From Allobosea sp. Root483D1 (lineage in GTDB: Bacteria; Pseudomonadota; Alphaproteobacteria; Rhizobiales; Beijerinckiaceae): 64,000 nt of DNA. The stretch spans positions 148,002-212,001 of the forward strand of contig NZ_LMJW01000018.1 of NCBI RefSeq assembly GCF_001429505.1, given 5' to 3'. A program made the translations under genes and the position numbers. Of the stretch, positions 18,547 through 41,466 are shown piece after piece. Each line of letters begins with the position of its first letter. The stretch's first letter is position 1. The notes under the pieces are model-generated. The model saw only the letters and a program-made list of their open reading frames with translations. It was not told the origin of the DNA and ran no database searches.

Positions 18547-18639
18547 GCACCTGCCGGCCAAAGCCTTTTCACAGCGACCTGCAATGCTCTAGTGAGAAAA
18601 CCGATCGCGCCTGCGGTCGTTCTTCTCGGTTTGGGATTC

Positions 18640-19572
18640 ATGACGGATATCGTTTGCATCGGCGAACCGCTCGGCGAGTTCAACGCGACGCGCGGCGAAG
18701 CCGGCGCCTATCGCTTCGGCCTTGGTGGTGACACCTCCAATTGTGCGATCGCGGCGGCGCGGCAGGGCGCGAAGGTCGCCTATGTCGGCGCGCTCGGCGA
18801 TGACGAGCCGGGCCGCTCCTTCCGGACGGCGTGGGCTGAGGAGGGCGTCGACGACAGGCATGTCTCGACCCACCCGTCGGCGCCGACGGGGCTCTATTTC
18901 GTCTCCCACGGCCCTCAGGGCCATGTCTTCTCCTATCTGCGCGCCGGTTCGGCCGCGAGCCTCTATGGCCCGTCACAGCTGCCGAAGGATGTCATCGCCT
19001 CCGCCAAAGTGATCCAGGCGTCCGGCATCAGCCAGGCGATTTCGGCGAGCGCCTGCGATGCGGTGTTCGAGGCCTTCGCGTTAGCCCGCGAGAGCGGCGT
19101 GCTCACCGCCTACGACACCAATCTCCGGCTCAAGCTCTGGCCACTGACGCGGGCACGGGCGATCGTCCATGCCGCCTGCGAGATGGCCGACATCGTCCTG
19201 CCGGGCGACGGCGACGCCAAGCTGCTGACCGGGCTGGAGCAGCCGGACGCGATCGTCGACTTCTATCTCAAGCTTGGCGCCAAGGTCGTGGCGCTGACGC
19301 TTGGCCATGAGGGCTCGCTGGTGGCGACGCCGGACCGGCGCCAGCGCTTCGTGCCGATCAAGGTCGATGCGATCGACGCGACCGGCGCCGGCGACTGCTA
19401 TGACGGCGCCTTCCTCGCCGAATATATCCGCACGGGCGACGCCTTCACCGCCGGCGCCTATGCCAATGTCGCGGCGGCGTTGTCGACGCAGGGCTATGGC
19501 GCGGTGGCGCCGCTGCCGCGTCGGGCGCAGGTCGAGGCGCGGATCGCGCAAGAAGCGGCGAGCCGGGCATGA
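18640..19572 (+). CDS. PfkB family carbohydrate kinase (2-keto-3-deoxygluconate kinase-like)
   Basis: Ribokinase-family sugar kinase of 310 residues. The N-terminal signature CIGEPLGEFNATRGE with GGDTSNCAIAAARQGAKVAYVG and the C-terminal PfkB motif DATGAGDCYDGAFLAEYI (catalytic Asp within GAGD) are clear. The N-terminus most resembles 2-keto-3-deoxygluconate kinases, but substrate cannot be proven from sequence. ATG 18640 is preferred over the ORF start at 18592 because it begins exactly at the first strand. It overlaps the HAD gene by four bases, so the two are co-translated and may act in one pathway. Confidence 0.87.
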   Translation: MTDIVCIGEPLGEFNATRGEAGAYRFGLGGDTSNCAIAAARQGAKVAYVGALGDDEPGRSFRTAWAEEGVDDRHVSTHPSAPTGLYFVSHGPQGHVFSYLRAGSAASLYGPSQLPKDVIASAKVIQASGISQAISASACDAVFEAFALARESGVLTAYDTNLRLKLWPLTRARAIVHAACEMADIVLPGDGDAKLLTGLEQPDAIVDFYLKLGAKVVALTLGHEGSLVATPDRRQRFVPIKVDAIDATGAGDCYDGAFLAEYIRTGDAFTAGAYANVAAALSTQGYGAVAPLPRRAQVEARIAQEAASRA

Positions 19573-20429
19573 GCGTTCCTGTCCTGATGGAAGCGGGCGC
19601 GCTGCTCGCCCGCTATGATGTGCTGATCAGCGATGTCTGGGGTGTCGTCCATGACGGCGTGCTGGCGCTCGATCCGGCCTGCGAGGCCTTGATGCGCTAT
19701 CGCGAGGGCGGTGGCACCGTGGTGCTGCTCTCGAACGCCCCGGGGCCTTCGGAACAGATCGCTGGCGTGCTCGACGGCAAGCGCGTGCCGCGCGCTGCCT
19801 GGGACCGGCTGGTGACTTCCGGCGATGTTACGCGCGCGCTGATCGCCGAGACGCATCTGCGCAAGGCCTATCATATCGGCTGGCATGACGACCGCGCGGT
19901 GTTCGAGGGCTTTGACGTCGAACTCGTCGGCGAGGACGAGGCCGAGTTCGTCGTCGCGACGGAACTCAACGACTATCGCCGAGAGCAGCCGGAGCAGTAC
20001 CGGCCGCTGCTGTCGCGCTTCGCCGCACGCGGGTTGCCCTTCATCTGCGGCAATCCCGACCTCGTCGTCCATGTCGGCCATGATCTCCTGCCCTGCGCCG
20101 GAGCGCTGGCGACGATCTACGAGGAGCTCGGCGGCCACGTCGCCTGGGCCGGCAAGCCCCACCGGCCGGCCTATGATCTTGCGCTTGCCGCCGCCCGCGA
20201 GGCGCGGGGCGGACGCGATGTCGATCCGGCCCGTGTGCTCGTCATCGGCGATGCGGTGCGCACCGATCTCGCCGGCGCCAGGATGATGGGCTTCGACAGC
20301 CTGTTCATCGCCGGCGGCATCCATCGCGACGAGACGATCCGCGATGGCGCGGTCGTGCCCGACGGGCTCGCCCGGGTGCTGGCGGCGCATAGGCCGCTGC
20401 CGGTCGCGGCGATGGCGGCGCTGGGCTGA
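19569..20429 (+). CDS. HAD superfamily class IIA hydrolase (TIGR01459-like)
   Basis: A 286-residue phosphatase-like protein of the NagD/class IIA HAD group. Motif I appears as ISDVWGVVHDG, where the second residue pair of the usual DxDG is displaced (DVWG), characteristic of the TIGR01459 subfamily; motif II is LLSNAPGPSE, and motif III/IV are AGKPHRPAY and VLVIGDAVRTDLAGA. The substrate is unknown. Translational coupling (ATGA) to the PfkB kinase suggests a linked sugar-phosphate role. It ends in a TGATCA shared with the convergent membrane protein gene, with no spacer. Confidence 0.87.
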   Translation: MSVPVLMEAGALLARYDVLISDVWGVVHDGVLALDPACEALMRYREGGGTVVLLSNAPGPSEQIAGVLDGKRVPRAAWDRLVTSGDVTRALIAETHLRKAYHIGWHDDRAVFEGFDVELVGEDEAEFVVATELNDYRREQPEQYRPLLSRFAARGLPFICGNPDLVVHVGHDLLPCAGALATIYEELGGHVAWAGKPHRPAYDLALAAAREARGGRDVDPARVLVIGDAVRTDLAGARMMGFDSLFIAGGIHRDETIRDGAVVPDGLARVLAAHRPLPVAAMAALG

Positions 20430-22808
20430 TCAGACCGGTGGCGGGTTCGTCTTGCGGATCCGCTCGCCGATCGCATGATAGAGCCCGTCGAGCGGGCGGA
20501 AGACGAAGCGGACCGTCGAGCGGCCGGGCGGCACCCTGACGGCGCGGAAAATGACGTTGGCGCGCAGCAGCTCGGCCGGCTTGCCGTCGACCTCGACCTG
20601 CCACCAGGGCTGCCAGACATCGTTCAGCACAAGGAAGCCGCCGCGCGGCGCATCGGCCTCGAGCAGCACCTCGGTCGTGCCGTAATTGCGGATGCGGACG
20701 CTTCCCGCCTGCGCCGGGCCGGTCGGCAGAGGTGGCGGCGGCCTGTCGAGCAGGACGGTGCGGCGCGGGTCGAAGCCCGCGGGCCATTGCCCACTCTTCA
20801 GGATGGCGCCGAAATCGGCAGCTTGCGCTTCGGTGACGAGGAGCACGCGCGGCAGGGCACGCGGGTTCTCGTAGACATAGGCCTCCTTCGTCCGCGCGAT
20901 CTGGACGAGATCGCCGGGCTTCAATCGCTTGTCGATCTCCTCGACCGGGACGCCGGTTGCGATGAAGCGCAGGCCGAGCATGTCGGCGAGCAGCGATCGG
21001 TAGGACGGCATCAGCGCCGAGAACGTGCGCTGGTCGGGCAGGGCGACATGGTCGCCGGCGCCGGTCGCCTGGCTGTAGAGGCCGAGCCGGAGCGGGTTGT
21101 AGCCGAGCGTGTTGTCGAGGCCGTGGACGAGGCTGGCATTGGGCCAGTGGAAATCTATGCCGGCGAGCTCGATGCGGTCGCGCCGGTCGGGGCCGGCGGT
21201 GCGGGCTGTTTCCCGCTTCAGCAGCGCGATGGTCTCGTTGCCGCTGTCGGCGCGCAGCACCTCGTACATCCCAGCCGGCAATGCGGTCGACTCGCTCGGG
21301 CCGTTATTGACCCCGAGGTCGACGACCATGGCGGTGGCGAGGATGATGGTCGCGGCCATGCCGGTGCCCTGCAAGGCGAGACCGCGCGCTGCGACCAGCG
21401 CCCCCGCCACCAGCGTCAGGCAGAGCACGGCCGTGACCAGCGGCACGAAGGCGACATGGAGCCGGCCGATGGTCCAGGCCAGCCAGATCGCGGCGGCGAA
21501 CCCCGCCAGCAGCAGCAGGATTTCGAGCGCGATCTGCCAGCGGCGCGGGCGCGGCGCGGTATCGGTCAGGACGAGATGGGTGAGATAGCCGCCGAGGATC
21601 GACAGCAGCGCGCCGAGGATGAAGAACGCGTCGGCTGGGCGGCGATAGAAGTCGATGCCGGGCAGATGGAAGAGCAGGGCAAAGCCCGGCGTATAGCGGC
21701 CGAGCGCAAAGACCAGGACGAGCAGCGCAGCTACGCTCAGGGCGATGATCTCGCGCCGGAGCAGGGCGCCGCGGACGATTCCGACACCGACGACGAGCAG
21801 GATCGGCAGCAGGCCGAGATAGAGCTCGCCCATATTGCGGGCGAGATAGAGGTCGAGTGGGCCGAAGCGTTTCTCCCAGGCCGGGCTGGGCGGGCCCCAG
21901 AAGTTCTCCAGCGGCCCCGACGCGCCATAGAGATTGGCGATCAGCCCGGTCAGCAGCGAGCCCGGATGCAGCGAGCCCTTGCCGGCTCCGGCGAGATCGA
22001 TGACCGGCCGGTTCGATTCTTCCGCAAGGACGGCGGTGAGCAGGATCGGAACCGTCGCGACCAGCGTGGCACCGAGCACACCAAGCAGCAGCGGCATGAT
22101 GCTCGCGCGCAGCGCCGCTAGCGGCTTGTCGGCCATGGCGATGGCGGCGAGCACCAGCCCGGCGAGGACATAGACGCCGAGCAGCGCGACCTGGTCGCGC
22201 CCCAGCACCATGAAGCCGGCGGCGATCCCGGCCGCGAAACCGTAGCGCCAGGAGCCGCGCTCCAACGCGCGGGAGAGCAGCAGCAACGTCACCGCGAAAT
22301 AGGCAAGGCTCAGCACCTGCCCGACATGCTGGATGCGCCAAGCGGCGGCGGCGCCGAAGGCGAAGGAGAGGGCGCAGACGACGGCGCCGGCCGGATGCCA
22401 GCCGCGGTCGCGGAAGAGCAGGACGAGGCAGAGCGCGCCGACGAGCAACGAGCCGAGCAGGGCGCCGTCGCTCCAGCGGAAGTCCGGCGTCGGGTTGAGC
22501 AGGGCGATGAGGAAGAAGGGCGGTGAGAAGATCAGCGATTGCGGGTCGGCGACCTGCGGCGATCCCGCGAAGACGAAGGGCGTCCAGAACGGCGAGAGGC
22601 CCTTGTGCAGCGCGCTGGCGAGGAACTGCAGCTGCGGGTGGAAATGCGCCTTGGCGTCCCAGGGGATGGTCAGCGCGCCGGAAAGCCAGGGCCAGGACAG
22701 AGCGAGCCAGCCGGCGCAGACCAGCAGCATCACCCTGGCGGTCGGCCAGGGCGCAGGCGTCGGCGTGATGTCTGGGCGGTCCCGGTCTGGCATCGAAGCA
22801 TCGGACAT
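20430..22808 (-). CDS. large YfhO-like polytopic membrane protein
   Basis: A 792-residue inner-membrane protein with about a dozen hydrophobic segments in its first 520 residues and a soluble, probably periplasmic C-terminal domain. The start, with GALTIPWDAKAHFHPQLQFLA and FSPPFFLIALLNPTPDF, matches YfhO/GT-C type proteins that in Gram-positives attach sugars to lipoteichoic acids; the acidic motif (WDAKAHFHP) is in the position of the GT-C first-loop Asp. The C-terminus has LVLNDVWQPWWQVEVDGKP, as in YfhO relatives. Its acceptor is unknown. It is alone on its strand between a HAD gene and ribA. Confidence 0.78.
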   Translation of the reverse strand: MSDASMPDRDRPDITPTPAPWPTARVMLLVCAGWLALSWPWLSGALTIPWDAKAHFHPQLQFLASALHKGLSPFWTPFVFAGSPQVADPQSLIFSPPFFLIALLNPTPDFRWSDGALLGSLLVGALCLVLLFRDRGWHPAGAVVCALSFAFGAAAAWRIQHVGQVLSLAYFAVTLLLLSRALERGSWRYGFAAGIAAGFMVLGRDQVALLGVYVLAGLVLAAIAMADKPLAALRASIMPLLLGVLGATLVATVPILLTAVLAEESNRPVIDLAGAGKGSLHPGSLLTGLIANLYGASGPLENFWGPPSPAWEKRFGPLDLYLARNMGELYLGLLPILLVVGVGIVRGALLRREIIALSVAALLVLVFALGRYTPGFALLFHLPGIDFYRRPADAFFILGALLSILGGYLTHLVLTDTAPRPRRWQIALEILLLLAGFAAAIWLAWTIGRLHVAFVPLVTAVLCLTLVAGALVAARGLALQGTGMAATIILATAMVVDLGVNNGPSESTALPAGMYEVLRADSGNETIALLKRETARTAGPDRRDRIELAGIDFHWPNASLVHGLDNTLGYNPLRLGLYSQATGAGDHVALPDQRTFSALMPSYRSLLADMLGLRFIATGVPVEEIDKRLKPGDLVQIARTKEAYVYENPRALPRVLLVTEAQAADFGAILKSGQWPAGFDPRRTVLLDRPPPPLPTGPAQAGSVRIRNYGTTEVLLEADAPRGGFLVLNDVWQPWWQVEVDGKPAELLRANVIFRAVRVPPGRSTVRFVFRPLDGLYHAIGERIRKTNPPPV

Positions 22809-22839: not shown

Positions 22840-23967
22840 TCAATCCTTCGGCGCGGCGCGCGCCATCAATGCGTCCATGTCGATGAAATGGCCGGCGCGA
22901 TCGCGCTTGGAGGCGAGATAGCGGACATTGTGGATGTTGGGGCGGCCGAGCACGCGCTGCGTCGCGGCGACTTCGAGGCCGGCAGCCTTGATCGCCCCGA
23001 TCTTCAGCGGGTTGTTGGTCAGCGCCGTGACGCTGGAGACGCCGAGCTGCTTCAGCATGGCGGCGGCGAAGTCGAAATGACGCTGGTCGAGATCGAAGCC
23101 GAGCACCTCGTCGGCGTCGTAGGTGTCCCAGCCCTGGCTCTGCAGCTTGTAGGCGCGCATCTTGTTGGAGATGCCGTTGCCGCGGCCTTCCTGGTCGAGA
23201 TAGAGCAGGATGCCGCCCTCGTTCTCGGCCATCCACTGCACGGTCTCGCGCAGCTGATCGCCGCAATCGCATTTCAGCGAGCCGAACAGGTCGCCGGTCA
23301 GGCAGGCCGAGTGCAACCGCACCGGCACTGCCGTCGAGAGATCCGGCTTGCCGACGATGATCGCGACCTGGTCACGCAGACCCTCGCCACCACGGAAGAC
23401 GACGAATTCGGTGTCAGGCGCGCCCTCCAACGGAACCGGCGCGCGGCCGACGATGGCAAGGCGCGCGACCTGGGCGGCCCGATAGCCGTTGACGGCTTCG
23501 ATGGTGACCTCGATCAGCGGCTCGCCGGCGACTTGCGCCGCCGAGACCGGGACGAGGATCACTGCCGGCAGCACCAGCGAAAGACGCGCCAGTTCAAGCG
23601 CGGCGTTGTCGAGGGTACCTGCCGGACCGACGGGAGCGTCGACGCGGGCATCGAGCTTCAAGGCCAGCGTCTCGACGCGGGCGAGGTCGATCGCGGGCAT
23701 GGCGAGGATGCCGGTCTCTGCGCGCCCCTTGGCGCCGAGGCGGCGCAGGCGCGCAGCGCTGAGAACGAGGCGAGCATTACCGGCGGACAGGGAGTCGAGG
23801 CGGGCAGCGAGATCGGCCTCCGCCAGCTCGGCCGACAAGGCCAGCGCCAGTTCCTCGCCCTGGCGCAGCAGCACGGGGCGGGCGGCGCGGAACTCGGCGA
23901 GAGCGCGGTCGACGGTGACCAGATCGGTTTCACCCGGCCGGCCGAAAAGCTTACGCGACTGAAGCAT
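22840..23967 (-). CDS. ribA: GTP cyclohydrolase II with N-terminal extension
   Basis: GTP cyclohydrolase II opens GTP to the pyrimidine precursor of riboflavin. The catalytic C-terminal domain is complete: the Zn-binding Cys set in HSACLTGDLFGSLKCDCGDQ, DQEGRGNGISNKMRAY, and the NNPLKI substrate segment. At 375 residues it is almost twice E. coli RibA (about 196). The N-terminal about 170 residues look like a degenerate partner domain rather than RibB, because the 3,4-DHBP synthase acidic motifs are absent. ATG 23967 is preferred; the frame is open to 24132. No FMN riboswitch is recognisable upstream. Confidence 0.92.
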   Translation of the reverse strand: MLQSRKLFGRPGETDLVTVDRALAEFRAARPVLLRQGEELALALSAELAEADLAARLDSLSAGNARLVLSAARLRRLGAKGRAETGILAMPAIDLARVETLALKLDARVDAPVGPAGTLDNAALELARLSLVLPAVILVPVSAAQVAGEPLIEVTIEAVNGYRAAQVARLAIVGRAPVPLEGAPDTEFVVFRGGEGLRDQVAIIVGKPDLSTAVPVRLHSACLTGDLFGSLKCDCGDQLRETVQWMAENEGGILLYLDQEGRGNGISNKMRAYKLQSQGWDTYDADEVLGFDLDQRHFDFAAAMLKQLGVSSVTALTNNPLKIGAIKAAGLEVAATQRVLGRPNIHNVRYLASKRDRAGHFIDMDALMARAAPKD

Positions 23968-24223
23968 CGGAAGGTCCGTCAGATTGCGCCCGGGGGCGCG
24001 GAGGAATTTGAACTTGTTACGCGCGTCTCGCTCGGACGGATGCACCCGGCGCGATACGGCGCTTCTACAACGTTTCCGCTTCTGCGTGGTTCCAAGTTCT
24101 ACGACACCGCAATCGGACTGATCGGCGACCAATTGCAGACTGGGCTATAAAAGCGCGAGATTGAACACCAGATGAATAGTCCCGGCAGGGGCAGAATATG
24201 GCGATCGGGAGCGTCGAAGGGAA

Positions 24224-24805
24224 ATGACGCAGCGACATGACGAGGTGACGACCGGCGCGGGGCGCGCCATCTACAGCCCCGTGGCGCGCGCACTGCACTG
24301 GATCACGGCCGCGGCGGTGTTCGTGATGGTGCCGGTCGGGCTCGCCATGACCTATCGCGGCAACACGCTCGACATCTGGGATGGGGTGACCGACGCACTC
24401 TATTCCTCGCACAAGCTGACTGGCTTCCTACTCCTCTGGCTCGGCGTCGGCCGGCTGATCTACCGGCTGGTGCATGGCGCGCCGCCCGACGAGCCGACGC
24501 TGGAATGGTGGCAGAAGGCCGGCTCGCACATCGTGCACTGGGCGCTTTACGGCTTGCTGCTGATCGTGCCGCTGCTCGGCTGGGTCGGGATCTCGCTGTT
24601 CCCGTCGCTGACGATCTTCAACCTGTTCGACCTGCCGGCGCTGGCCGCGCCCGATGAAGAGGCTGCCAAGCGCGTGCTCTTCGTCCATGGCTGGCTCGCC
24701 ATCCTGCTAGCGCTTTTGGCCTGCGGGCACATCGGCGCTGCGCTGTTCCATTATTTGGTCGGCAGGGATGGTGTGCTGCGCCGGATGCTGCCCGGGCTGA
24801 AATAG
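24224..24805 (+). CDS. cytochrome b561 family membrane protein
   Basis: A 193-residue di-heme b-type cytochrome of the inner membrane with four predicted helices. Heme-ligand candidates are His in YSPVARALHWITAAAV, SSHKLTGFLL, HIVHWALYGLLL and VLFVHGWLAILLAL. Family members oxidise quinol and pass electrons to superoxide or periplasmic acceptors. The last helix is followed by a short basic tail. It stands alone on its strand; the Nudix gene converges on it with a three-base gap. Confidence 0.92.
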   Translation: MTQRHDEVTTGAGRAIYSPVARALHWITAAAVFVMVPVGLAMTYRGNTLDIWDGVTDALYSSHKLTGFLLLWLGVGRLIYRLVHGAPPDEPTLEWWQKAGSHIVHWALYGLLLIVPLLGWVGISLFPSLTIFNLFDLPALAAPDEEAAKRVLFVHGWLAILLALLACGHIGAALFHYLVGRDGVLRRMLPGLK

Positions 24806-33640: not shown

Positions 33641-33703
33641 GGATCGGGCTTCCGAGCCTGCTGACCTGTTTGGCCGTGCGTTACCATCGTCGTCAACGCG
33701 AGA

Positions 33704-33804
33704 GTCGTCCCGGGCGGAGCGAAGCGTAGACCCGGGACCCATTCCGGAACGGTTCAGGAATGGATCCCGGATCGGCGCCGCTATCGCGGCTTGTCCGGGA
33801 CGAC
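33704..33804. repeat. intergenic repeat, GTCGTCCCGGGC family
   Basis: Element with arms GTCGTCCCGGGC and GTCCGGGACGAC plus inner GGACCCATTCC/GGAATGGATCC-like pairs. Similar elements occur at 38455-38565 and, shortened, at 58971-59028. It fills most of the gap between the exported protein gene and the TauE gene. Confidence 0.78.
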
Positions 33805-33825: not shown

Positions 33826-34821
33826 TTACTTCTTCGCTTCCGGCTTGGCCGGCGGATTCGGGTCCTTCGAGAAGCTGCGGAAGACCATGTCGGGCGAGGA
33901 GGTGTTGTGACGCGAATGGGTGGCGCGGCCCATCCAGACATCGGTCGCCTTGCCGCCGGTGAAGGGCATCAGCGCCTCCTCGCGCCAGCCCTTGGCGCCG
34001 GGTTCGCGGATGGCGATGCGGGCGACGTCGTTGTTGAACTCGGTGACGTACATCGAGCGCAGCGCGGCGAAGGCCTTGCCGCCGGCGACCGGCTTATCGA
34101 GCACGGCGTCGAGCACCATGCGGTTCTCATCGACGCTGTCGAGCTTCAGCGTGCCCGAGCTGCCATCCTTGAAAGCGAGATTGAAGGAGAGCGTCTTTGG
34201 ATCGAAGGCGATCTCCTTGATATTCACCACCGGCCGGGCGCCGTCCTGCTCAACCGGGCCGAACAGGAAGGAGGAGCCGTAGGCCGCGGCCGAAAGTTGC
34301 TGCGGCGGCAGCGGGCGGACACGCCAGTAGCCATCCTGCGGATAGACGACCAGCACCTCGTAGGAGCCGGTCTTGCCGAGCTTCCAGAGCTGGACGAGAT
34401 GCAGGCCCTTCTCGACGCGGTCGCCGACCCGGAAGGTCGTCTCGGCCGGGCGCCAGAAGCTCTCGAAGGTGTAGCCGACGAGCCAGTACTCGATGCTCTC
34501 GTAGAAGGTGATGCGCTGCGGCGGCACCGGCGCCTTGAAGACGGGATCGCCGGTCATGTCGCAATCGGTCCAGTCGGCGTCCCAGTTGTCGCGCAGCAGG
34601 CCGGCGATATAGGCCGGATGCGCGGCCTCGATGCGGAAGCGACGGACCTCCGGCGAGATCGCCTTGATGGTGACGTTGTCCTTCTCGGCGCAGGCGACCT
34701 GCTCCGACTCGTTCTTGACCTCGACGGCGACGTCGCCGGCGGCATGGGCTGCCATGGCGGAGGCAAGGAGAGCAAATGGAACCAGGAAGGTGCGCAGCCG
34801 CGCGGACAGGGTCGTCATCAT
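33826..34821 (-). CDS. exported protein of unknown function in the opgH cluster
   Basis: A 331-residue protein with a signal peptide (LSARLRTFLVPFALLASAMA, cleavage near AAHA). I do not recognise the domain. The mature part is mainly beta-rich (TIKAISPEVRRFRIEAAHPA, FRVGDRVEKGLHLVQLWK, GYWRVRPLPPQQLSAAAYGS), with one Cys pair candidate at CAEKD and WTDCDM, and ends in a Pro/Lys tail. No OpgG-like similarity is evident. The start is ATG 34821 (or 34818), four bases from the upstream methyltransferase stop, so it is in the opgH-FkbM operon and probably acts in the periplasm on the same polymer. Confidence 0.78.
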   Translation of the reverse strand: MMTTLSARLRTFLVPFALLASAMAAHAAGDVAVEVKNESEQVACAEKDNVTIKAISPEVRRFRIEAAHPAYIAGLLRDNWDADWTDCDMTGDPVFKAPVPPQRITFYESIEYWLVGYTFESFWRPAETTFRVGDRVEKGLHLVQLWKLGKTGSYEVLVVYPQDGYWRVRPLPPQQLSAAAYGSSFLFGPVEQDGARPVVNIKEIAFDPKTLSFNLAFKDGSSGTLKLDSVDENRMVLDAVLDKPVAGGKAFAALRSMYVTEFNNDVARIAIREPGAKGWREEALMPFTGGKATDVWMGRATHSRHNTSSPDMVFRSFSKDPNPPAKPEAKK

Positions 34822-34825
34822 CGGA

Positions 34826-35584
34826 TCAGCCTTGCAAAAGGGCGTAGACATCGCCTGAGTTCGCATCATGTGGCAGTTCGCGGATATAGCCGGCCATCGC
34901 CGCGGCGGGAACAGCTTCGGCGAAGGCGAGCGTCTGGCTCTCGCCCAGTGCGACATTGAAGCGGTAGGGGCCGAGCGCCGCGAGCCTGGCGAGACAGGCT
35001 TGCGCGACATCGCGCTGGATCGTGGTGAACTCGAAGGAGAGGGCGGGCGGCGTCTGGCTGAGCCCGGCGAGCACATGTGCCTCGAAGCCCTCGACATCGA
35101 TCTTGACGAAGGCGGGCAGGCCGTATTCGCCGATCAGTGCATCGAGCGTGGTGCAAGGCACGGTGAGCTCGCGATCCCAGATCTGCTCGCCCCAGCCTTC
35201 CTGGCCGTGAGCCGCATCGACGAACTCGGCCGAGAGGGTCGAGACGGTCGGGTTGGCGCTGTTGATCCGGAGCGTTGCCGTGCCCTCGCTGTCGCCGCAG
35301 GCGGCCTCGACCAGCGTCACCTTGGGATCGCGGCCGTGGATAAGGCGCAGCGCCCTTGCCGGGCCGGGCTGAGGTTCGAGCGCAACGACGCGGGCCCCTA
35401 ACCGGCGGAAGGAGGAGATGCGGTCGCCGACATGGGCGCCAATGTCGAAGGCGAGGTCGCCCGGCCGCAGGAAGCGCGCATAGAGCGAGTCCATGGCGAC
35501 CTTGCGGACATGGTCGCCATGGTAGACGCGCAGCGAGCGCGCCAGGCTCTTTGCGGTGCCCTGGGGGTACGCGACCGGCTTCAT
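34826..35584 (-). CDS. FkbM family SAM-dependent methyltransferase
   Basis: A 252-residue class I methyltransferase. SAM-binding motif I is FDIGAHVGDRISSFRRLGAR, followed by VVALEPQP, and the FkbM signature VKIDVEGFEAHVLAGL. Members methylate sugars or polyketides; the enzyme here probably modifies a glucan or related saccharide. It is coupled to opgH (ATGA overlap with its stop) and precedes the exported protein by four bases. It has no signal peptide, so it acts in the cytoplasm. Confidence 0.87.
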   Translation of the reverse strand: MKPVAYPQGTAKSLARSLRVYHGDHVRKVAMDSLYARFLRPGDLAFDIGAHVGDRISSFRRLGARVVALEPQPGPARALRLIHGRDPKVTLVEAACGDSEGTATLRINSANPTVSTLSAEFVDAAHGQEGWGEQIWDRELTVPCTTLDALIGEYGLPAFVKIDVEGFEAHVLAGLSQTPPALSFEFTTIQRDVAQACLARLAALGPYRFNVALGESQTLAFAEAVPAAAMAGYIRELPHDANSGDVYALLQG

Positions 35585-37404
35585 CGGGTGTCGCCGCCCT
35601 GGATCGCGACGATCTCGGCCGGCGGGTCGAAATCCTCGGGGATGCCGCAGAGACCCGAGCGGACGAACAGGGCGCCCAGCGCCGGCGCTGCGGTCAGCAT
35701 CGCGAAGGGGATGGCGAGGAGATAGCCGGCAGTCAGCGGCAGCGACCAGACCAGCACGGCCGGCGACAGTACGGCGAGCGTGCCGAAGATGTAGATTCCA
35801 AACAGCAGATGCGGCCAGAGGCCGGCGAAGGCGGTGGCGAAGGAGAGGGCATGGGCATCGCGGGCCTGGCCGTTCCAGCCGATCTTCGCCTTGCCGAAGG
35901 CGAGGCCGATCATGAACAGCGTGGTCCGGAAGGTCGAGACCGCGCCCTGCAGGAAGGCGAAGACGACCTCGATCAGCGAGGAGACGACGAAGCGCAAGGT
36001 GCCGCCATAGCGCTTCGTGCCATCCTTGGTCAGCAGGATGTCGGCGAAGCCGGCGAGCTTGGGCGACAGGTACATCGCGAAGAACAGCACATAGAGGAAG
36101 GCGGCGAAGCCGGCGGGGTAATCGGCGATTGCGCGATCCTCCAGCACCTTCAACGGCAGGAGCGCGATCATCAGCGTCCAGGCCGGGAGGCCGATGAACA
36201 TCAGGATCGCCCAGGCGAGCTGGAAGCGGCTCATCGCCTTGAGGTCGGGAATGTCCATGATCTTCAGATACTGCAGATTGCCGAGGCACCAGCGCAGGTC
36301 GCGCCGGGCGAATTCGAGCATGGTCGGCGGGTTCTCCTCCCAGCTGCCCGCCTCGACCGGGAGCACGCGGACCTCGTAGCCGGCGCGGCGCATCAGGGTC
36401 GCCTCGACCTGGTCGTGGCTCATGATGGGACCGCCGAGCGGCGGCCCGCCCGGCACGGTCGGCAGATGGCAATGGTCGCGGAAGGGCGCGATCCGCACCA
36501 TGGCGTTGTGGCCCCAGAACGGACCGCAATCGCCGATCCACCAGGCCGAGCCCATGGTGTAGGGCCGCATGCCGTGGCGCATGCCGAACTGGAAGATGCG
36601 GGCGAAGGCCGATTTGCTCGGCATGCCGACGACGAGGCTCTGCAGGATGCCGAGCTTCGGATAGGCCTGCATCATCCGGGCGAGGGCGAGGATGGCTCGC
36701 CCCGACATCACGGAGTCGGCGTCGAGCGGCAGCATCAGCTCATAGCGATCGCCCCAGCGCTCGCAGAAATCGCGGACATTGCCGGCCTTGTAGCCGGCAT
36801 TGTCGCTGCGGCGGCGATAGACGACGGTGCAGTCCTCGCCCGCATCGCGGGAGAGCTCGGCCGCAAGCGCTTCCTCGCGAGCCGCGACCTCCGAGTCATT
36901 TGTGTCGGAGAGCACGAAATAATCGAACCAGCCGCCCTCGCCGGTGGCGTTGACACTTTCCTTGACGATACGCAGCCGCGCGAAGGCGCGGGCCGGGTCC
37001 TCGTTGCGCAGCGTCATCAGCACGGCGGTGCGGATTGTGAGCGGCGTCTTTGCCTCGCCGGCGGCTGCGAAGGGCGCGACCTGATCGAGTCCGTCCTCCG
37101 TGCCGTGCAGGAGCCAGAGCCCGATCACGGCGTTCCAGAAGCCGAGCACGGTCCAGGGTGCGCCGAACAGGAAGGCGATGAAGATCGCGATATCGGCAAG
37201 GCTCCAGCCGCCGGCCGAGAGCACGCGCGCCAGGCCGTAAAGCAGGCCCGCGAGGGTTACGAGATTCAGGGCCGCGACGAGCCAGCGCCGCGCCAGCAAG
37301 GTGGAGAAGGACTGCAGCCCCGCCGGCGTCAGCCTGGTGTCCTCTTGCGCCGCCGCCTGGAACGTGGTCGGAGCGGGACGCTGGTTCATGGCGGTTTCCG
37401 TCAT
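35581..37404 (-). CDS. opgH: OpgH/MdoH family glucan glucosyltransferase
   Basis: A 607-residue inner-membrane processive GT2 that polymerises UDP-glucose to the beta-glucan backbone of osmoregulated periplasmic glucans and exports it. Visible features are an N-terminal pair of membrane segments, the metal/nucleotide Asp in LPLDADSVMSG, the conserved MGSAWWIGDCGPFWGHNAMV, IMSHDQVEATLMRRAG, and the RRDLRWCLGNLQ motif, then several C-terminal helices. E. coli OpgH is longer (847). No opgG partner is adjacent; instead an FkbM methyltransferase and a novel exported protein follow. ATG 37404 (or 37389) is likely. Confidence 0.9.
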   Translation of the reverse strand: MTETAMNQRPAPTTFQAAAQEDTRLTPAGLQSFSTLLARRWLVAALNLVTLAGLLYGLARVLSAGGWSLADIAIFIAFLFGAPWTVLGFWNAVIGLWLLHGTEDGLDQVAPFAAAGEAKTPLTIRTAVLMTLRNEDPARAFARLRIVKESVNATGEGGWFDYFVLSDTNDSEVAAREEALAAELSRDAGEDCTVVYRRRSDNAGYKAGNVRDFCERWGDRYELMLPLDADSVMSGRAILALARMMQAYPKLGILQSLVVGMPSKSAFARIFQFGMRHGMRPYTMGSAWWIGDCGPFWGHNAMVRIAPFRDHCHLPTVPGGPPLGGPIMSHDQVEATLMRRAGYEVRVLPVEAGSWEENPPTMLEFARRDLRWCLGNLQYLKIMDIPDLKAMSRFQLAWAILMFIGLPAWTLMIALLPLKVLEDRAIADYPAGFAAFLYVLFFAMYLSPKLAGFADILLTKDGTKRYGGTLRFVVSSLIEVVFAFLQGAVSTFRTTLFMIGLAFGKAKIGWNGQARDAHALSFATAFAGLWPHLLFGIYIFGTLAVLSPAVLVWSLPLTAGYLLAIPFAMLTAAPALGALFVRSGLCGIPEDFDPPAEIVAIQGGDTR

Positions 37405-37445
37405 GGGCTCATCAGGCTGGCGGGGAACGGCGCGGAGGGCGATGC

Positions 37446-38444
37446 GTGGTAAAGCCGGCAATTGCAAACGAAGCAAGCGGAGAGACGCAGGCGACCGCGC
37501 TCTGGTATGCCGCCGCGCGTGAATGCGTCCTGAACACGGAAGAGCTGCCGCTGCCCGGGCCGGGCGAGTGCCTTGTGCGCACGCTCTGGAGCGGCATCAG
37601 CCGCGGCACCGAGCGGCTGGTCTTCGAGGGCCGGGTTCCCGAGAGCGAATATGAGCGCATGCGAGCCCCCCTCCAGCAGGGCGCGTTCCCGTTTCCGGTG
37701 AAATACGGCTACTGCGCCGTCGGCATGGTGGATGCGGGCCCGGCCGAGCTGCTCGGCAGGACTGTGTTCTGCCTGCATCCGCATCAGGACCACTTCGTCG
37801 TGCCGACGGACCGCGTGGCCATGGTGCCGGAAGGCCTTCCGGCCAGGCGTGCCGTGCTCGCCGCGAACATGGAAACCGCGCTCAATGCGCATTGGGATGC
37901 CGGCTCCGGCCCGGCCGACCGGATCGTCGTGGTCGGCGGCGGCGTGCTCGGCCTGCTCGTTGCGTATATCGCGGCAAGGCTGCCGGGCGCCGAGGTGACG
38001 CTGGTCGATCTCGACGAGAGCCGAGCCGGGCTTGCGGAGGCGCTGGGCTGCCGGTTCGCGCTGCCGACGCACTGCCCGCAGGATGCCGACCTTGTCTTCC
38101 ATGCCAGCGCCAGCGCTGCCGGTCTCGCCACGGCGATCGGCGCAGCCGGGTTCGAAGCACGGATCGTCGAGTTGAGCTGGTATGGCGAGGGCAGCGTAGC
38201 GGCGCCGCTCGGTGGCGCCTTCCATGCCCGGCGCCTGCAACTCGTCTCCTCGCAGGTCGGGCAGGTCTCGCCGTCGCGGCGGGCGCGCTTCGATTATGCG
38301 CGACGGGCCAATGCGGCGCTGGCGCTGCTGGCTGACGCGCGGCTCGATGCGCTGATCACGGACGAGATCGCGTTCAGGGATGCGCCTGCGCGATTGCCCG
38401 CGCTGTTCGCCGGCGCAGGGCTGACGGCGGTCCTGCGCTATTGA
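37446..38444 (+). CDS. non-zinc MDR superfamily dehydrogenase
   Basis: A 332-residue medium-chain dehydrogenase/reductase. The N-terminus carries LWSGISRGTERLVFEG in place of the catalytic-Cys segment of zinc enzymes, and KYGYCAVG replaces GHE, so neither zinc site is present. The nucleotide-binding part has VVVGGGVLGLLVAY and TLVDLDESR (an acidic residue, thus NAD). It resembles the family called zinc-binding alcohol dehydrogenase in annotation only. GTG 37446 is chosen because of GGAGGG six bases upstream. It heads the cluster with the PTPS-like, GT4 and methyltransferase genes and is divergent from opgH (41-base gap). Confidence 0.84.
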   Translation: MVKPAIANEASGETQATALWYAAARECVLNTEELPLPGPGECLVRTLWSGISRGTERLVFEGRVPESEYERMRAPLQQGAFPFPVKYGYCAVGMVDAGPAELLGRTVFCLHPHQDHFVVPTDRVAMVPEGLPARRAVLAANMETALNAHWDAGSGPADRIVVVGGGVLGLLVAYIAARLPGAEVTLVDLDESRAGLAEALGCRFALPTHCPQDADLVFHASASAAGLATAIGAAGFEARIVELSWYGEGSVAAPLGGAFHARRLQLVSSQVGQVSPSRRARFDYARRANAALALLADARLDALITDEIAFRDAPARLPALFAGAGLTAVLRY

Positions 38445-38454
38445 TCTTTTCCCG

Positions 38455-38565
38455 GGTCATCCCGGACAAGCGGCAAAGCCGCGCCGATCCGGGATCCATT
38501 CCGGAGCCTTCCCGATTGGGGTTCCGGAATGGGTCCCGGGTCTCCCTTCGGTCGCCCGGGACGAC
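38455..38565. repeat. intergenic repeat inside the MDR/PTPS cluster
   Basis: Repeat of the TCATCCCGGACAAGCGGC type: arms GTCATCCCGGAC and GCCCGGGACGAC with an inner GGATCCATTCC/GGAATGGGTCC pair. It occupies 111 of the 188 bases between the MDR and PTPS-like genes; the PTPS-like gene then has its own strong ribosome binding site. Confidence 0.8.
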
Positions 38566-38632
38566 ACGCGTCGTGGAGGGTAGGCAGAAGCGCGGCAGGG
38601 GCTTAAGCAAGCTGCGCTGAAGGAGACCGCCC

Positions 38633-39034
38633 ATGTTTTCCGTCGAAGTCCGCGATCGCATCATGATCGGCCATTCGCTGCCTGATCCGTTCTTCGGCCC
38701 GGCGCAGGCGATGCACGGCGCGACCTTCGTCGTCGACGTCGCCTTCTTCCGTGAGAATCTCACCCGTCAGAACGTCGTGGTCGATATCGGCGCGGCGCTC
38801 TCCGTGCTGAACCAGACGCTGAAGCCGCTGAACTACCAGAATCTGGATGCCCTGCCGCAGTTCGCGGGCGTGCTGACCACCACCGAATTCCTCTGCAAAT
38901 ACATCTTCGACGCGATGGCGGCCGCGGCGCGCTCCGGCAAGCTCGGGGCGGACGCCGCCGATCTCGCCAAGATCCGTGTGACGCTGCACGAGACCGACCT
39001 GGCCAGGGCAAGCTATGAGGGCGCGCTCGCGTGA
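38633..39034 (+). CDS. 6-pyruvoyltetrahydropterin synthase-like protein with substituted active site
   Basis: A 133-residue T-fold protein of the PTPS/QueD family; in QueD and PTPS these enzymes act on dihydroneopterin triphosphate. By eye against E. coli QueD: His14 and His28 match two zinc ligands, but the third is Ala30 (MHGATF instead of HGH), and the catalytic Cys position is Ala24. LNYQNLD replaces LDHxxLN, so Asp70 and His71 are Asn67 and Tyr68. Glu120, which holds the pterin ring, is kept (TLHETD). Ribosome binding site AAGGAG is seven bases upstream. It overlaps the GT4 start (GTGA). Chemistry is therefore unlikely to be standard; it may bind a pterin. Confidence 0.84.
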   Translation: MFSVEVRDRIMIGHSLPDPFFGPAQAMHGATFVVDVAFFRENLTRQNVVVDIGAALSVLNQTLKPLNYQNLDALPQFAGVLTTTEFLCKYIFDAMAAAARSGKLGADAADLAKIRVTLHETDLARASYEGALA

Positions 39035-40083
39035 GCGAGATCGTCTTCGCCATTCCCGGCGACCTCTCGCTGCCGACCGGCGGCTATGCTTACGACCGGC
39101 GGCTCCTGGCGGAATGGCACGAGATGGGCGTCGCGGCGCGCCATCTGCCGCTCCCGGGTGGTTTCCCGACACCGAACGAGGTCGATCTCGCCGAAACCGG
39201 CCGGGCGATCCTGTCGCAGCCCTATGACAGCGTGCTGCTGATCGACGGCCTCGCCTATGGCGCCTTCCCTGAGAGCATCGCGGCCGGGCTGGCCGGGCGC
39301 GTCGTCGCGCTGGTACATCATCCGCTCGGATTGGAAACGGGCCTGCCGCCGGTGCAGGCGGCGGAGTTCGTCAGGCGCGAGACGGCGGCCTTGCGTTATG
39401 CGGCTGCTGTCATCGCCTCCAGCGAGACGACCAAGCGCCTGCTCGTCGCCGATTTCGCCGTGCCGGCGGAACGCATCACGGTTGCCGAGCCGGGTGTCGA
39501 CCCGGCGGAGCGGGCAACCGGTTCCGGAGGCAGCGAGAGCGTCGAATTGCTCGCCGTCGGCTCGCTCGTGCCGCGCAAGGGCTATGACGTTCTGATCGCG
39601 GCGCTGGCGGGGCTGGCTGACAAGCCATGGCGCCTGACCATCGTCGGCGCTGATGATCGCGCACCTGCGACCACAGCTGCTTTGAAGACCCAGATTGCCG
39701 CCGCCGGGCTGTCCGAGCGGATCAGGCTCACGGGTGCGCTTCGGCAGGGCGAACTCGACGCGGCCTATGTCAGGGCCGATCTCTTCGTCATGCCGTCGTT
39801 GTTCGAGGGCTACGGCATGGTGCTGACCGAGGCGCTGGCGCGCGGCCTGCCGATCCTGTGCACCACGGGCGGAGCCGCTGCCGAGACGGCTCCCGACGAG
39901 GCTGCATTGAAGGTCCCGCCGGGCGATGTCGCGGCACTGCGTGCCGGGCTGGCACGGTTGTTGGATGATCGGGACGAGCGTCGGCGCCGCGCCGACGCGG
40001 CCTGGCATGCAGCCGGCGCATTGCCGCGCTGGCGGCGGACTGCGACGATCGTCGCTGAAGTTTGTGCGAAGGTATCCCCATGA
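39031..40083 (+). CDS. GT4 family glycosyltransferase
   Basis: A 350-residue GT-B glycosyltransferase (group 1) that transfers an activated sugar with retention. The C-terminal nucleotide-sugar domain has LLAVGSLVPRKGYDVLIAAL and the EX7E motif in FEGYGMVLTEALARGLPIL. The N-terminal domain begins with a FAIPGDLSLPTGGYAYDRRLL Rossmann-like segment that includes a Gly-rich acceptor loop. Cytosolic; no membrane segment. The GTG start overlaps the PTPS-like stop, and its own TGA overlaps the methyltransferase ATG, so all three are co-translated. The acceptor may be the product of the preceding gene. Confidence 0.88.
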   Translation: MSEIVFAIPGDLSLPTGGYAYDRRLLAEWHEMGVAARHLPLPGGFPTPNEVDLAETGRAILSQPYDSVLLIDGLAYGAFPESIAAGLAGRVVALVHHPLGLETGLPPVQAAEFVRRETAALRYAAAVIASSETTKRLLVADFAVPAERITVAEPGVDPAERATGSGGSESVELLAVGSLVPRKGYDVLIAALAGLADKPWRLTIVGADDRAPATTAALKTQIAAAGLSERIRLTGALRQGELDAAYVRADLFVMPSLFEGYGMVLTEALARGLPILCTTGGAAAETAPDEAALKVPPGDVAALRAGLARLLDDRDERRRRADAAWHAAGALPRWRRTATIVAEVCAKVSP

Positions 40084-40919
40084 GCGGCTTTTCTCCCGAC
40101 TGGCTGGCTTTGCGCGAACCGGCCGACCATGCCGCGCGCAATCCGCAGGTGCTCGCTGCAGTCGGCTCGACCTTTGCCGGACGGCAATCGCTTTCGGTCG
40201 TCGATCTCGGATGTGGTGCCGGCTCGAACCTGCGTGGCAGCTACAGCGCGCTGCCCGTGCGCCAGCACTGGACGCTCGTCGATGCCGATTCGCGCCTCTT
40301 GTCCGTCGCCCGGCGCAAGCTCACCGAATGGGCCGACGAGGCGCAGGAGCAGGGCGAGGAGATCGTCTTGCACAAGGACGACAAGACGCTGACGGTCGAT
40401 TTCCGCCAGGCCGACCTGACCAAGGAGCTCGAATGGGTGCTCGGCTGGCAGCCGGATCTGGTCACGGCCGCGGCGCTGTTCGATCTCGCCTCGGCACGCT
40501 GGCTCGAACGTTTCGTCGCCTCGCTCGTCAGCATGCGGCTGCCGCTCTACACCGTGCTGACCTATGACGGGCGCGAGAGCTGGGAGCCGACACACCCGGA
40601 AGACCAGCGCATGCTCACGGCCTTCCATCATCACCAGCGCACGGACAAGGGCTTCGGCCCGGCGGCCGGCCCCGATGCCACCGAGGCGCTGGCCCAAGCC
40701 TTCCGCAAGGCAGGCACGGCGGTCACGGTCGGTGAAAGCCCGTGGCAGCTCGAAGCGAGCCAGCCCGACCTGATCCGCGAGCTAGCGGCGGGTATCGCTG
40801 CCGCCGTTGGCGAGACCGGGCATGTCGCATCGGAGGCGATCGCCGCCTGGCTGGAGGCCAAGCGCGGCGCGGTCTCGGTACGCATCGGCCATCAGGACCT
40901 GTGGGCACGGCCGGTGTGA
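40080..40919 (+). CDS. class I SAM-dependent methyltransferase
   Basis: A 279-residue methyltransferase with SAM motif I VVDLGCGAGSNLRG, an acidic residue after the next strand (TLVDADSRLL), and a downstream PDLVTAAALFDLAS segment. The rest is typical of the small-molecule group. ATG 40080 overlaps the GT4 stop (ATGA). Substrate unknown; the operon order suggests it methylates the same compound that is glycosylated. Confidence 0.86.
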   Translation: MSGFSPDWLALREPADHAARNPQVLAAVGSTFAGRQSLSVVDLGCGAGSNLRGSYSALPVRQHWTLVDADSRLLSVARRKLTEWADEAQEQGEEIVLHKDDKTLTVDFRQADLTKELEWVLGWQPDLVTAAALFDLASARWLERFVASLVSMRLPLYTVLTYDGRESWEPTHPEDQRMLTAFHHHQRTDKGFGPAAGPDATEALAQAFRKAGTAVTVGESPWQLEASQPDLIRELAAGIAAAVGETGHVASEAIAAWLEAKRGAVSVRIGHQDLWARPV

Positions 40920-40965: not shown

Positions 40966-41466
40966 ATGACCTCGCTTCCCCTCACCATTCGCCAGGAACT
41001 GCCGGGCGACGCAGCGGCGATCGAACGCCTGCACGAGCGCGCCTTCGGACCGGGCCGCTTCGCGCGGACGGCTTTTCGTCTACGTGAGGGCGCGCCGCCC
41101 GATCCGGCACTCTCCTTCGCCAGCCATGTCGGCACCTTTCTGGTCGGCGCGGTCCGGGTGACGCCCATCCTCGCCGGTGGCGCGCCGGCGTTGATGCTCG
41201 GCCCGCTGACCGTCGATCCAGCCTTCGACGGGCGGGGCATCGGGGCGGCGCTGATGAACGCGGCGATCGAGGCGGCGCGCGAGCACGGCCATGATCTGAT
41301 CCTGCTGGTGGGGGATGCGCCCTATTACGCCCGCTTCGGCTTCAAGCCGGTGAAGCCGGGCCAGCTCGTGCTGCCCGGCCCGGCCGATCCGGGGCGGTTC
41401 CTGGCGCTGGAGCTGAAGGACGGCGTGCTGGCACAGCGCAGCGGCGCGGTGGCGGCGCTGCGCTGA
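40966..41466 (+). CDS. GNAT family N-acetyltransferase (YhbS-like)
   Basis: A 166-residue acetyltransferase. Motif A is LTVDPAFDGRGIGAALMNAA (acetyl-CoA pyrophosphate loop), preceded by LGPL, and motif B-like ILLVGDAPYYARFGFKPV follows. This pattern matches the YhbS family. ATG 40966 is taken because the domain starts right after it; the ribosome site is weak. The gene follows the methyltransferase by 46 bases and may be the last gene of that transcript or separate. Substrate unknown. Confidence 0.86.
   Translation: MTSLPLTIRQELPGDAAAIERLHERAFGPGRFARTAFRLREGAPPDPALSFASHVGTFLVGAVRVTPILAGGAPALMLGPLTVDPAFDGRGIGAALMNAAIEAAREHGHDLILLVGDAPYYARFGFKPVKPGQLVLPGPADPGRFLALELKDGVLAQRSGAVAALR

Follow-up and report, generated by a model that had tools for sequence, protein, structure and literature searches.

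What a protein of the pterin-enzyme fold does between a dehydrogenase and a glycosyltransferase is the question raised by a four-gene unit in a 64,000-nucleotide stretch of DNA (hereafter the window), located on contig 18 of the 6.6 Mb genome of Allobosea sp. Root483D1 (G000). The unit encodes a medium-chain dehydrogenase/reductase (MDR), a protein of the pyruvoyl tetrahydropterin synthase (PTPS) fold, a family 4 glycosyltransferase (GT4) and a methyltransferase; the named locus nearest to it is that of a Bosea, with 98% identity in the PTPS-like protein. The conserved set probably builds a sugar-decorated, methylated molecule from GTP with a putative pterin-binding protein that lacks the PTPS active site. 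The four genes are the following:

37446-38444, forward strand: MDR dehydrogenase resembling BchC at a score far under the BchC cut-off, without the catalytic-zinc ligand set (family search, alignment, fold model)
38633-39034, forward strand: PTPS-IV protein (FGPAQ, HGAT), a degenerate PTPS fold with SCO6650 (3d7j) as its closest solved structure (Pfam, structure homologue, alignment, tree)
39031-40083, forward strand: GT4 glycosyltransferase, overlapping the PTPS-IV gene by 4 bases (Pfam, overlap)
40080-40919, forward strand: class I S-adenosylmethionine (SAM)-dependent methyltransferase, overlapping the GT4 gene by 4 bases (sequence below the Pfam cut-off; confident fold model)

A preliminary description of this DNA had reported the four genes, the MDR gene ahead of the others on the same strand, and two 4-base overlaps; these features and their coordinates were confirmed, the overlaps being GTGA at 39031-39034 and ATGA at 40080-40083. 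The open reading frame of the methyltransferase is listed from TTG 40062, and ATG 40080 is the likelier start. The MDR and PTPS-IV genes are separated by 188 bases in the window and by about 15 to more than 500 bases in relatives, with at least 1 kb in a few loci. The PTPS-like protein scores 72.6 bits against PF01242, the PTPS fold family (cut-off 22.4), and the GT4 protein 106.8 bits against PF00534 (cut-off 26.4). The MDR and the methyltransferase match their own Pfam families only under the curated cut-offs; their predicted models (mean pLDDT 88.0 and 95.3, respectively) are consistent with an MDR dehydrogenase fold and, in a confident model, a class I methyltransferase fold. A fold search with the methyltransferase returned generic small-molecule class I methyltransferases and no hint of the substrate.

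Judged by its residues, the "PTPS" of the window is no ordinary PTPS or QueD, but a PTPS-IV protein predicted to be devoid of the catalytic cysteine, the Asp-His pair and one zinc ligand. The FGPAQ motif, which is the signature of the PTPS-IV subfamily (PMC5445326), is present in all 36 sequences of an alignment that draws on alphaproteobacterial, other proteobacterial and actinomycete loci. The window protein is a full-length homologue of the solved structure 3d7j, the uncharacterised protein SCO6650 from Streptomyces coelicolor (phmmer E-value 3.5e-38), and FGPAQ and HGAT are common to both. The SCO6650 structure reportedly contains neither zinc nor the catalytic triad, and the protein is reported to have no PTPS activity. 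His14, FGPAQ, His28-Gly-Ala30 and Glu120 are invariant in the 36 sequences; an alignment with two PTPS entries (3i2b and 1b66) was also consulted. What we take to be the third zinc histidine is replaced by alanine in every sequence (HGH to HGA), the presumed catalytic cysteine is gone (at most 8 cysteines in any column), and the Asp-His pair that we assume to be catalytic never occurs at 67-68, with no histidine at 68; Glu120 is presumably the pterin anchor. The preliminary description is not supported in so far as it implies PTPS/QueD-like catalysis: none of the 36 aligned sequences retains the catalytic residues. As a control, HGH was seen in 30 canonical alphaproteobacterial PF01242 proteins, which score highest among 51 PF01242 places and come from an extraction that favoured HGH where present.

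A tree of 66 rows places the 36 PTPS-IV sequences in one clade apart from the 30 HGH-type PTPS/QueD proteins (support 100/100, from a bootstrap that had not settled), and the QueD model scores 29.5 bits on the window protein versus a cut-off of 89. A QueD function was rejected on the residues, the separate clade and this score. In ten plasmid records the PTPS-IV relative is annotated as 6-carboxytetrahydropterin synthase nine times and as 6-pyruvoyl tetrahydropterin synthase once (L148). Because HGH, the cysteine and the Asp-His pair are lost and the clade is separate, the label 6-carboxytetrahydropterin synthase is very likely wrong for these relatives.

Conservation of the gene order was analyzed in 80 named genome loci, 20 further genome regions and 10 plasmid records, many of which are close relatives and not independent. 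The 80 loci were those with the best matches to the PTPS-like protein, and tblastn with the window proteins was run against them; the counts take loci with enough flank, in five sets. The order MDR, PTPS-IV, GT4, methyltransferase is found in most of the 80 loci, with OpgH and FkbM genes upstream on the opposite strand. The MDR gene lies 5' of PTPS-IV on the same strand, with a gap of less than 1.6 kb, in 98 of 106 loci (Bosea-type 39/39, other alphaproteobacterial 31/37, further alphaproteobacterial regions 12/12, non-alphaproteobacterial regions 8/8, plasmids 8/10). A GT4 gene starts no more than 0.7 kb downstream of PTPS-IV in 99 of 107 loci (38/38, 38/39, 9/12, 8/8 and 6/10 in the same sets), and a methyltransferase gene is found within 2.7 kb downstream in 98 of 102 (38/38, 35/35, 10/12, 7/7 and 8/10). 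Chance synteny was rejected by these flank counts; the order is kept across Hyphomicrobiales, where the preliminary description had proposed to look for it, and beyond. Because the 80 loci are mostly close kin, weight is placed on the non-alphaproteobacterial loci, Thiodictyon, Streptomyces fungicidicus and Microbacterium; the first of these (L134-L141), which belong to the same phylum as the window, are taken to be Gammaproteobacteria, like Thiodictyon (L147). The four genes are supported as one conserved unit in Alphaproteobacteria, Gammaproteobacteria and Actinomycetes.

The cluster is also carried, whole or in part, on plasmids (L142-L149, L207 and L208) of Methylosinus, Agrobacterium, Palleronia, Neorhizobium, Streptomyces, Microbacterium and others, and this carriage points to horizontal spread.

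The distribution of PTPS-IV was compared with that of two riboflavin-type enzymes in a family set of 119 genomes. PTPS-IV occurs in 60 of these (E-value ≤ 0.001; the best E-value of the weakest genome is 1.2e-38) and in 27 of 398 genomes sampled over the phylum (E-value ≤ 1e-20). The stand-alone reductase RibD_C of the cluster type (at least 188 bits) is found in 37 of the 119 genomes, 36 of which contain PTPS-IV, and GTP cyclohydrolase II (RibA) of the PRK08815 type (at least 323 bits) in 68, of which 55 contain it; the respective Fisher p-values of 3.6e-13 and 1.7e-15 are too small, since the genomes are related and no correction for relatedness was applied. Expressed the other way, this RibA is found in 55 of 60 PTPS-positive versus 13 of 59 PTPS-negative genomes. 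In genomes with both genes, the distance to PTPS-IV is within 5 kb for RibD_C in 29 of 36 and for RibA in 36 of 55.

PF00925 (RibA) and PF01872 (RibD_C) are both found near PTPS-IV in many relatives. The window has RibA at about 14 kb and no match to RibD_C or creatininase. Its other relevant genes are listed below:

35581-37476, reverse strand: OpgH/MdoH-type membrane glucosyltransferase, divergent from the MDR gene, true start probably further inside (NF003963, 918 bits)
34826-35572, reverse strand: FkbM-family methyltransferase (family search, neighbourhood counts)
33826-34740, reverse strand: conserved protein without family match (57% identity to L108:5300-6325)
24224-24805, forward strand: cytochrome b561, divergent from RibA, the same neighbour as in relatives (family match)
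22840-24132, reverse strand: GTP cyclohydrolase II RibA, PRK08815/NF006456 type, start likely near 23967 (family models, alignment)
20430-22808, reverse strand: YfhO/PMT_2-like protein, a conserved RibA neighbour (family match, relatives)
19569-20429, forward strand: HAD-IIA-type phosphatase, a conserved neighbour (family match, relatives)
18592-19572, forward strand: PfkB sugar kinase, overlapping the HAD gene by 4 bases, weak as a member of the set (28% identity to the ribokinase of L149)

The RibA, cytochrome b561, YfhO-like and HAD genes form one inverted block about 13 kb upstream of the four genes, in the order that L045 has directly 3' of the methyltransferase. The loci nearest to the window, L032-L040, showed no RibA within the stretches examined, and the split between block and cluster therefore looks specific to this Bosea subgroup. 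The neighbourhood in relatives comprises cytochrome b561, RibD_C, RibA, the YfhO-like protein and the HAD phosphatase, and OpgH lies near PTPS-IV in 36 of 36 Bosea-type and 25 of 28 other alphaproteobacterial loci. A RibA gene was present inside the stretch for 28 of the 36 Bosea-type loci and for 16 of the 28 other alphaproteobacterial ones, nine of these 16 having a shorter type of RibA. The preliminary description had placed ribA about 14 kb away and outside the cluster; the distance stands, but these counts, together with the 55/60 versus 13/59 distribution, speak against the exclusion. Nor does a folE gene, which that description had proposed to look for, accompany the unit: the only PF01227 match of the genome is on another contig, and the linked cyclohydrolase is of type II.

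The shorter RibA (213-255 amino acids) is found near PTPS-IV in L108, L069, L076, L078, L086, L098, L100, L105 and L111, which suggests replacement of the cyclohydrolase in these nine loci; L108 also has a gene for a ChvA-type glucan exporter close by. On the 3' side of the window methyltransferase, a GNAT acetyltransferase gene (40966-41466) has matches only in the closest loci (L032-L040), with a distant copy in L096, and is therefore left outside the conserved set. An intergenic element between the MDR and PTPS-IV genes (38445-38632) has a partner at about 33694-33804, with 51-base arms (33732-33782 and 38477-38527) that are 80% complementary; the motif CCCGGGACGAC has exact copies at 33704 (reverse strand), 38555 and 59018 (forward strand) of the window.

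The chemistry of the window RibA can be anticipated from its residues. The zinc cysteine triad is present, and the position equivalent to what we count by hand on the alignment as Tyr105 of E. coli is tyrosine in 52 of the 53 RibA sequences that could be read, the window included, and methionine in L145 of S. fungicidicus; five further RibA matches were unreadable and stand outside the 53. Methionine at this position leads to a formylated product. Because the window enzyme has tyrosine at this position, whose role we assume to be the same here, it should give the ordinary deformylated diaminopyrimidine product. The genome contains two further PF00925 copies. The one on contig 20 at about 80.0-81.4 kb (L197), presumably RibBX-like, has a cyclohydrolase half without zinc cysteines; that on contig 1 at about 298-299 kb (L190), which we take to be URC1-like, is a GTP cyclohydrolase II homologue with the cysteines kept. 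The window RibA must accordingly serve flavin synthesis as well, and a RibA dedicated to the cluster pathway in Bosea was rejected. A pairing of creatininase, as an ArfB-like FAPy deformylase, with Met-type RibA was rejected as well: methionine is found only in L145, and L134, L136 and L137 have tyrosine. The creatininase of L145 scores 37 bits against ArfB (cut-off 180) and 141 bits against MftE (cut-off 172).

From gene content, synteny, co-occurrence, residue losses and predicted folds we infer the reactions, substrates and product class as follows. The favoured reading, to which we give an even chance of being right, is a GTP cyclohydrolase II-fed biosynthesis of a glycosylated, methylated pyrimidine or pterin. 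RibA would open GTP to 2,5-diamino-6-ribosylamino-pyrimidinone 5'-phosphate, and the ribose would be reduced to a ribityl chain by the dedicated RibD_C in many non-Bosea relatives and presumably by the ordinary RibD in Bosea. PTPS-IV, having lost PTPS catalysis, may hold the 2-amino-4-oxo-pyrimidine ring by Glu120 and bind this precursor or a pterin derived from it. The MDR would oxidise a side-chain hydroxyl, GT4 would add a sugar, and the methyltransferase or methyltransferases a methyl group. The preliminary description had proposed a glycosylated and methylated pterin-like product; a decorated small molecule derived from GTP is plausible in outline and the best reading, and its identity as a pterin is unproven.

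Several observations weigh against this reading. The MDR gene is absent or distant in 6 of 37 other alphaproteobacterial loci, and GT4 does not adjoin PTPS-IV in five alphaproteobacterial loci (L127-L129, L143 and L149). On Streptomyces linear plasmids (L150 and L151, 10001-10400) PTPS-IV stands alone, without MDR, GT4 or methyltransferase. Thirteen PTPS-negative genomes carry PRK08815-type RibA. Apart from the window RibA, the genome encodes no complete GTP cyclohydrolase II of the riboflavin type; the need for flavin alone therefore explains the presence of this RibA. Cluster-type RibD_C is found in none of the 36 Bosea-type loci, and all five genomes of the same genus have only weak, RibD-like matches. 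Creatininase would be expected only beside a Met-type (FAPy-making) RibA, and the residue is tyrosine in three of the four RibA-bearing loci that have a creatininase match. Catalytic zinc ligands like those of polyol dehydrogenases are missing from the MDR, which has SRGTE and GYxxVG at the sites where we assume the cysteine and the His-Glu pair to be expected, and a plain analogy with polyol dehydrogenases is thereby weakened. In favour of the reading, the fold model of the MDR matches polyol-type dehydrogenases, though with scores close to those of many other MDRs, which leaves polyol specificity unestablished. The best NCBIfam match of the MDR is BchC (TIGR01202), yet at 47.4 bits versus a cut-off of 291; we take BchC to be 2-desacetyl-2-hydroxyethyl bacteriochlorophyllide dehydrogenase.

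The lone PTPS-IV genes of L150 and L151 lie near genes for a MEKHLA-domain protein, a cupin, an MBL-fold protein and a sigma-70 factor, which constitutes a second, different PTPS-IV context.

The rival that survives best, though doubtful, is a membrane or envelope glycoconjugate, in which the GTP-derived ring would be a headgroup to which a CDP-alcohol phosphatidyltransferase attaches a lipid; GT4, OpgH and YfhO-type enzymes would glycosylate it, FkbM methylate it and a flippase export it. The non-alphaproteobacterial loci with enough flank argue for it, with the phosphatidyltransferase in 7 of 7 and an LPG/flippase gene in 6 of 7, beside RibD_C in 7, RibA in 3 and creatininase in 4 of the 7. 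Annotations of the phosphatidyltransferase are present in L144, L145, L146, L147, L207 and L208 as well, and four of these records (L144, L146, L207 and L208) also list a flippase-type protein. Four Rhizobiaceae plasmid records were compared. In L207 and L208 the RibA, phosphatidyltransferase and FkbM genes are consecutive on one strand, opposite to that of the MDR-PTPS-GT4-methyltransferase unit, and the other side holds RibD_C and cytochrome b561; L144 has this arrangement without FkbM, and L148 has none of these genes nearby. OpgH and FkbM adjoin the cluster in the window too. However, phosphatidyltransferase and flippase are unmatched in the 36 Bosea-type and 28 other alphaproteobacterial loci and in the window, and OpgH, with its known role in periplasmic glucans, could be a bystander.

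A second rival, which we consider rather improbable, would have PTPS-IV as a binding or carrier protein that, with its partners, modifies an intermediate of the riboflavin pathway into a glycosylated pyrimidine, lumazine or flavin and makes no pterin. It is consistent with the recurrence of RibA, RibD_C and cytochrome b561 and with a RibA shared with flavin synthesis in G000; no lumazine or pterin enzyme was identified among the recurring neighbours, where such enzymes were not searched by name. The pterin-anchor glutamate kept in the PTPS pocket counts against it, favouring a 2-amino-4-oxo ring over deaminated flavin precursors.

Within the favoured GTP cyclohydrolase II-fed reading, the preferred ring chemistry leads to a bolder proposal. 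Oxidation of the ribityl chain at C2' would give the 1-deoxypentulose amine that also arises as the Amadori intermediate in the GTP cyclohydrolase I reaction, and would thereby allow the 5-amino group to close a dihydroneopterin-type ring inside PTPS-IV. That oxidation of a ribitylamino-pyrimidine at C2' yields the carbon skeleton of this intermediate is a matter of structure; its use by the cell is hypothetical. A second pterin route, independent of GTP cyclohydrolase I, would arise in this way: the deoxypentulose intermediate would be made by GTP cyclohydrolase II together with a ribityl reductase and an MDR without zinc, and a catalytically re-purposed PTPS fold would close the ring. The resulting pterin would carry sugar and methyl groups, would be anchored to lipid in some lineages, and would work alongside cytochrome b561 at the membrane. 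We regard this proposal in full as a long shot.

The folate genes bear on this pterin route. GTP cyclohydrolase I is encoded in G000 by its single PF01227 match, and there is thus no pterin shortage to fill. Six of the 119 family genomes have no FolE match, and FolE2 is matched in none of the six; PTPS-IV is found in four of them (G022, G037, G062 and G070). G037 (99% complete, in 2 contigs) has PTPS-IV and RibA 3 kb apart, FolB and FolK, with no match to FolE or FolE2, and is a possible hint of pterins made independently of GTP cyclohydrolase I. The other three also lack FolB and FolK; G037 is therefore no pattern and possibly reflects an assembly gap. A further FolE-less genome, G064 (86% complete), has FolB, FolK and cluster-type RibD_C without PTPS-IV, and in the last, G023, FolB is matched weakly and FolK not at all. 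Conversely, G032, G099 and G004 have FolE and neither FolB nor FolK. Replacement of GTP cyclohydrolase I in folate synthesis by a PTPS-IV route was kept only as a lead, as 4 of 6 versus a background of 60 of 119 says little.

A deazaflavin or F420-like cofactor is highly improbable. The ribityl-pyrimidine would be a common precursor, and one paper (PMC5041015) refers to unpublished work tying PTPS-IV to archaeal F420; no CofG/CofH-type radical SAM gene, however, is annotated in the plasmid records or among the classified neighbours in relatives, the rest of G000 not having been searched. The early steps of the archaeal riboflavin and F420 pathways, whose genes we believe to be ArfB and ArfC, do resemble the cluster. 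The best NCBIfam model of the cluster RibD_C is the general ribD_Cterm (146.5 bits, cut-off 150), the archaeal diaminopyrimidine reductase is second (120 bits, cut-off 186), and some clusters contain a creatininase-family protein. The likeness is incomplete, in that the creatininase of L145 is nearer to MftE than to ArfB, and neither gene has a match in the window. The S. fungicidicus cluster has a Met-type RibA and a creatininase, both absent from the window. Finally, a QueD feeding queuosine is scarcely credible, for although PTPS-IV is the sole PF01242 protein of G000 and is so annotated in nine of ten plasmid records, the HGA motif, the loss of cysteine and Asp-His in all 36 sequences, the separate clade and the low model score largely refute it.

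Part of this picture is already in print. PTPS-IV was described as a subfamily of COG0720 (AGeNNT cluster-node 62) with the FGPAQ signature and a PF00925 and PF01872 neighbourhood (PMC5445326), the same signature and the same RibA and RibD_C neighbourhood as here. That paper names PF00925 GTP cyclohydrolase I/FolE2, whereas the Pfam name is GTP cyclohydrolase II, and the text on PTPS-IV in its section 19 mentions no MDR, GT4, methyltransferase, cytochrome b561 or CDP-alcohol phosphatidyltransferase and assigns no reaction. In the open-licence literature searched, which is weak evidence of absence, "PTPS-IV" appears as a protein subfamily name only in PMC5445326 and PMC5041015, and neither an assignment of bacterial PTPS-IV function nor a description of the MDR-GT4-methyltransferase set was found. 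The RibA/RibD_C neighbourhood of PTPS-IV is thus published, and the MDR, GT4 and methyltransferase partners are without a description that we found.

The locus of Allobosea sp. Root483D1 is a member of a recurrent, uncharacterised biosynthetic cluster around a known orphan subfamily, which extends from soil alphaproteobacteria to Streptomyces. PTPS-IV is common in some groups and, in the records examined, mostly annotated as 6-carboxytetrahydropterin synthase; a misleading annotation is corrected here, and the fixed partners make the orphan subfamily a testable pathway. The pathway could yield a new small molecule of pterin, flavin-like or lipid-linked type, and if the ring is indeed closed from the RibA product, this would be a new way of making the pterin ring in these bacteria.

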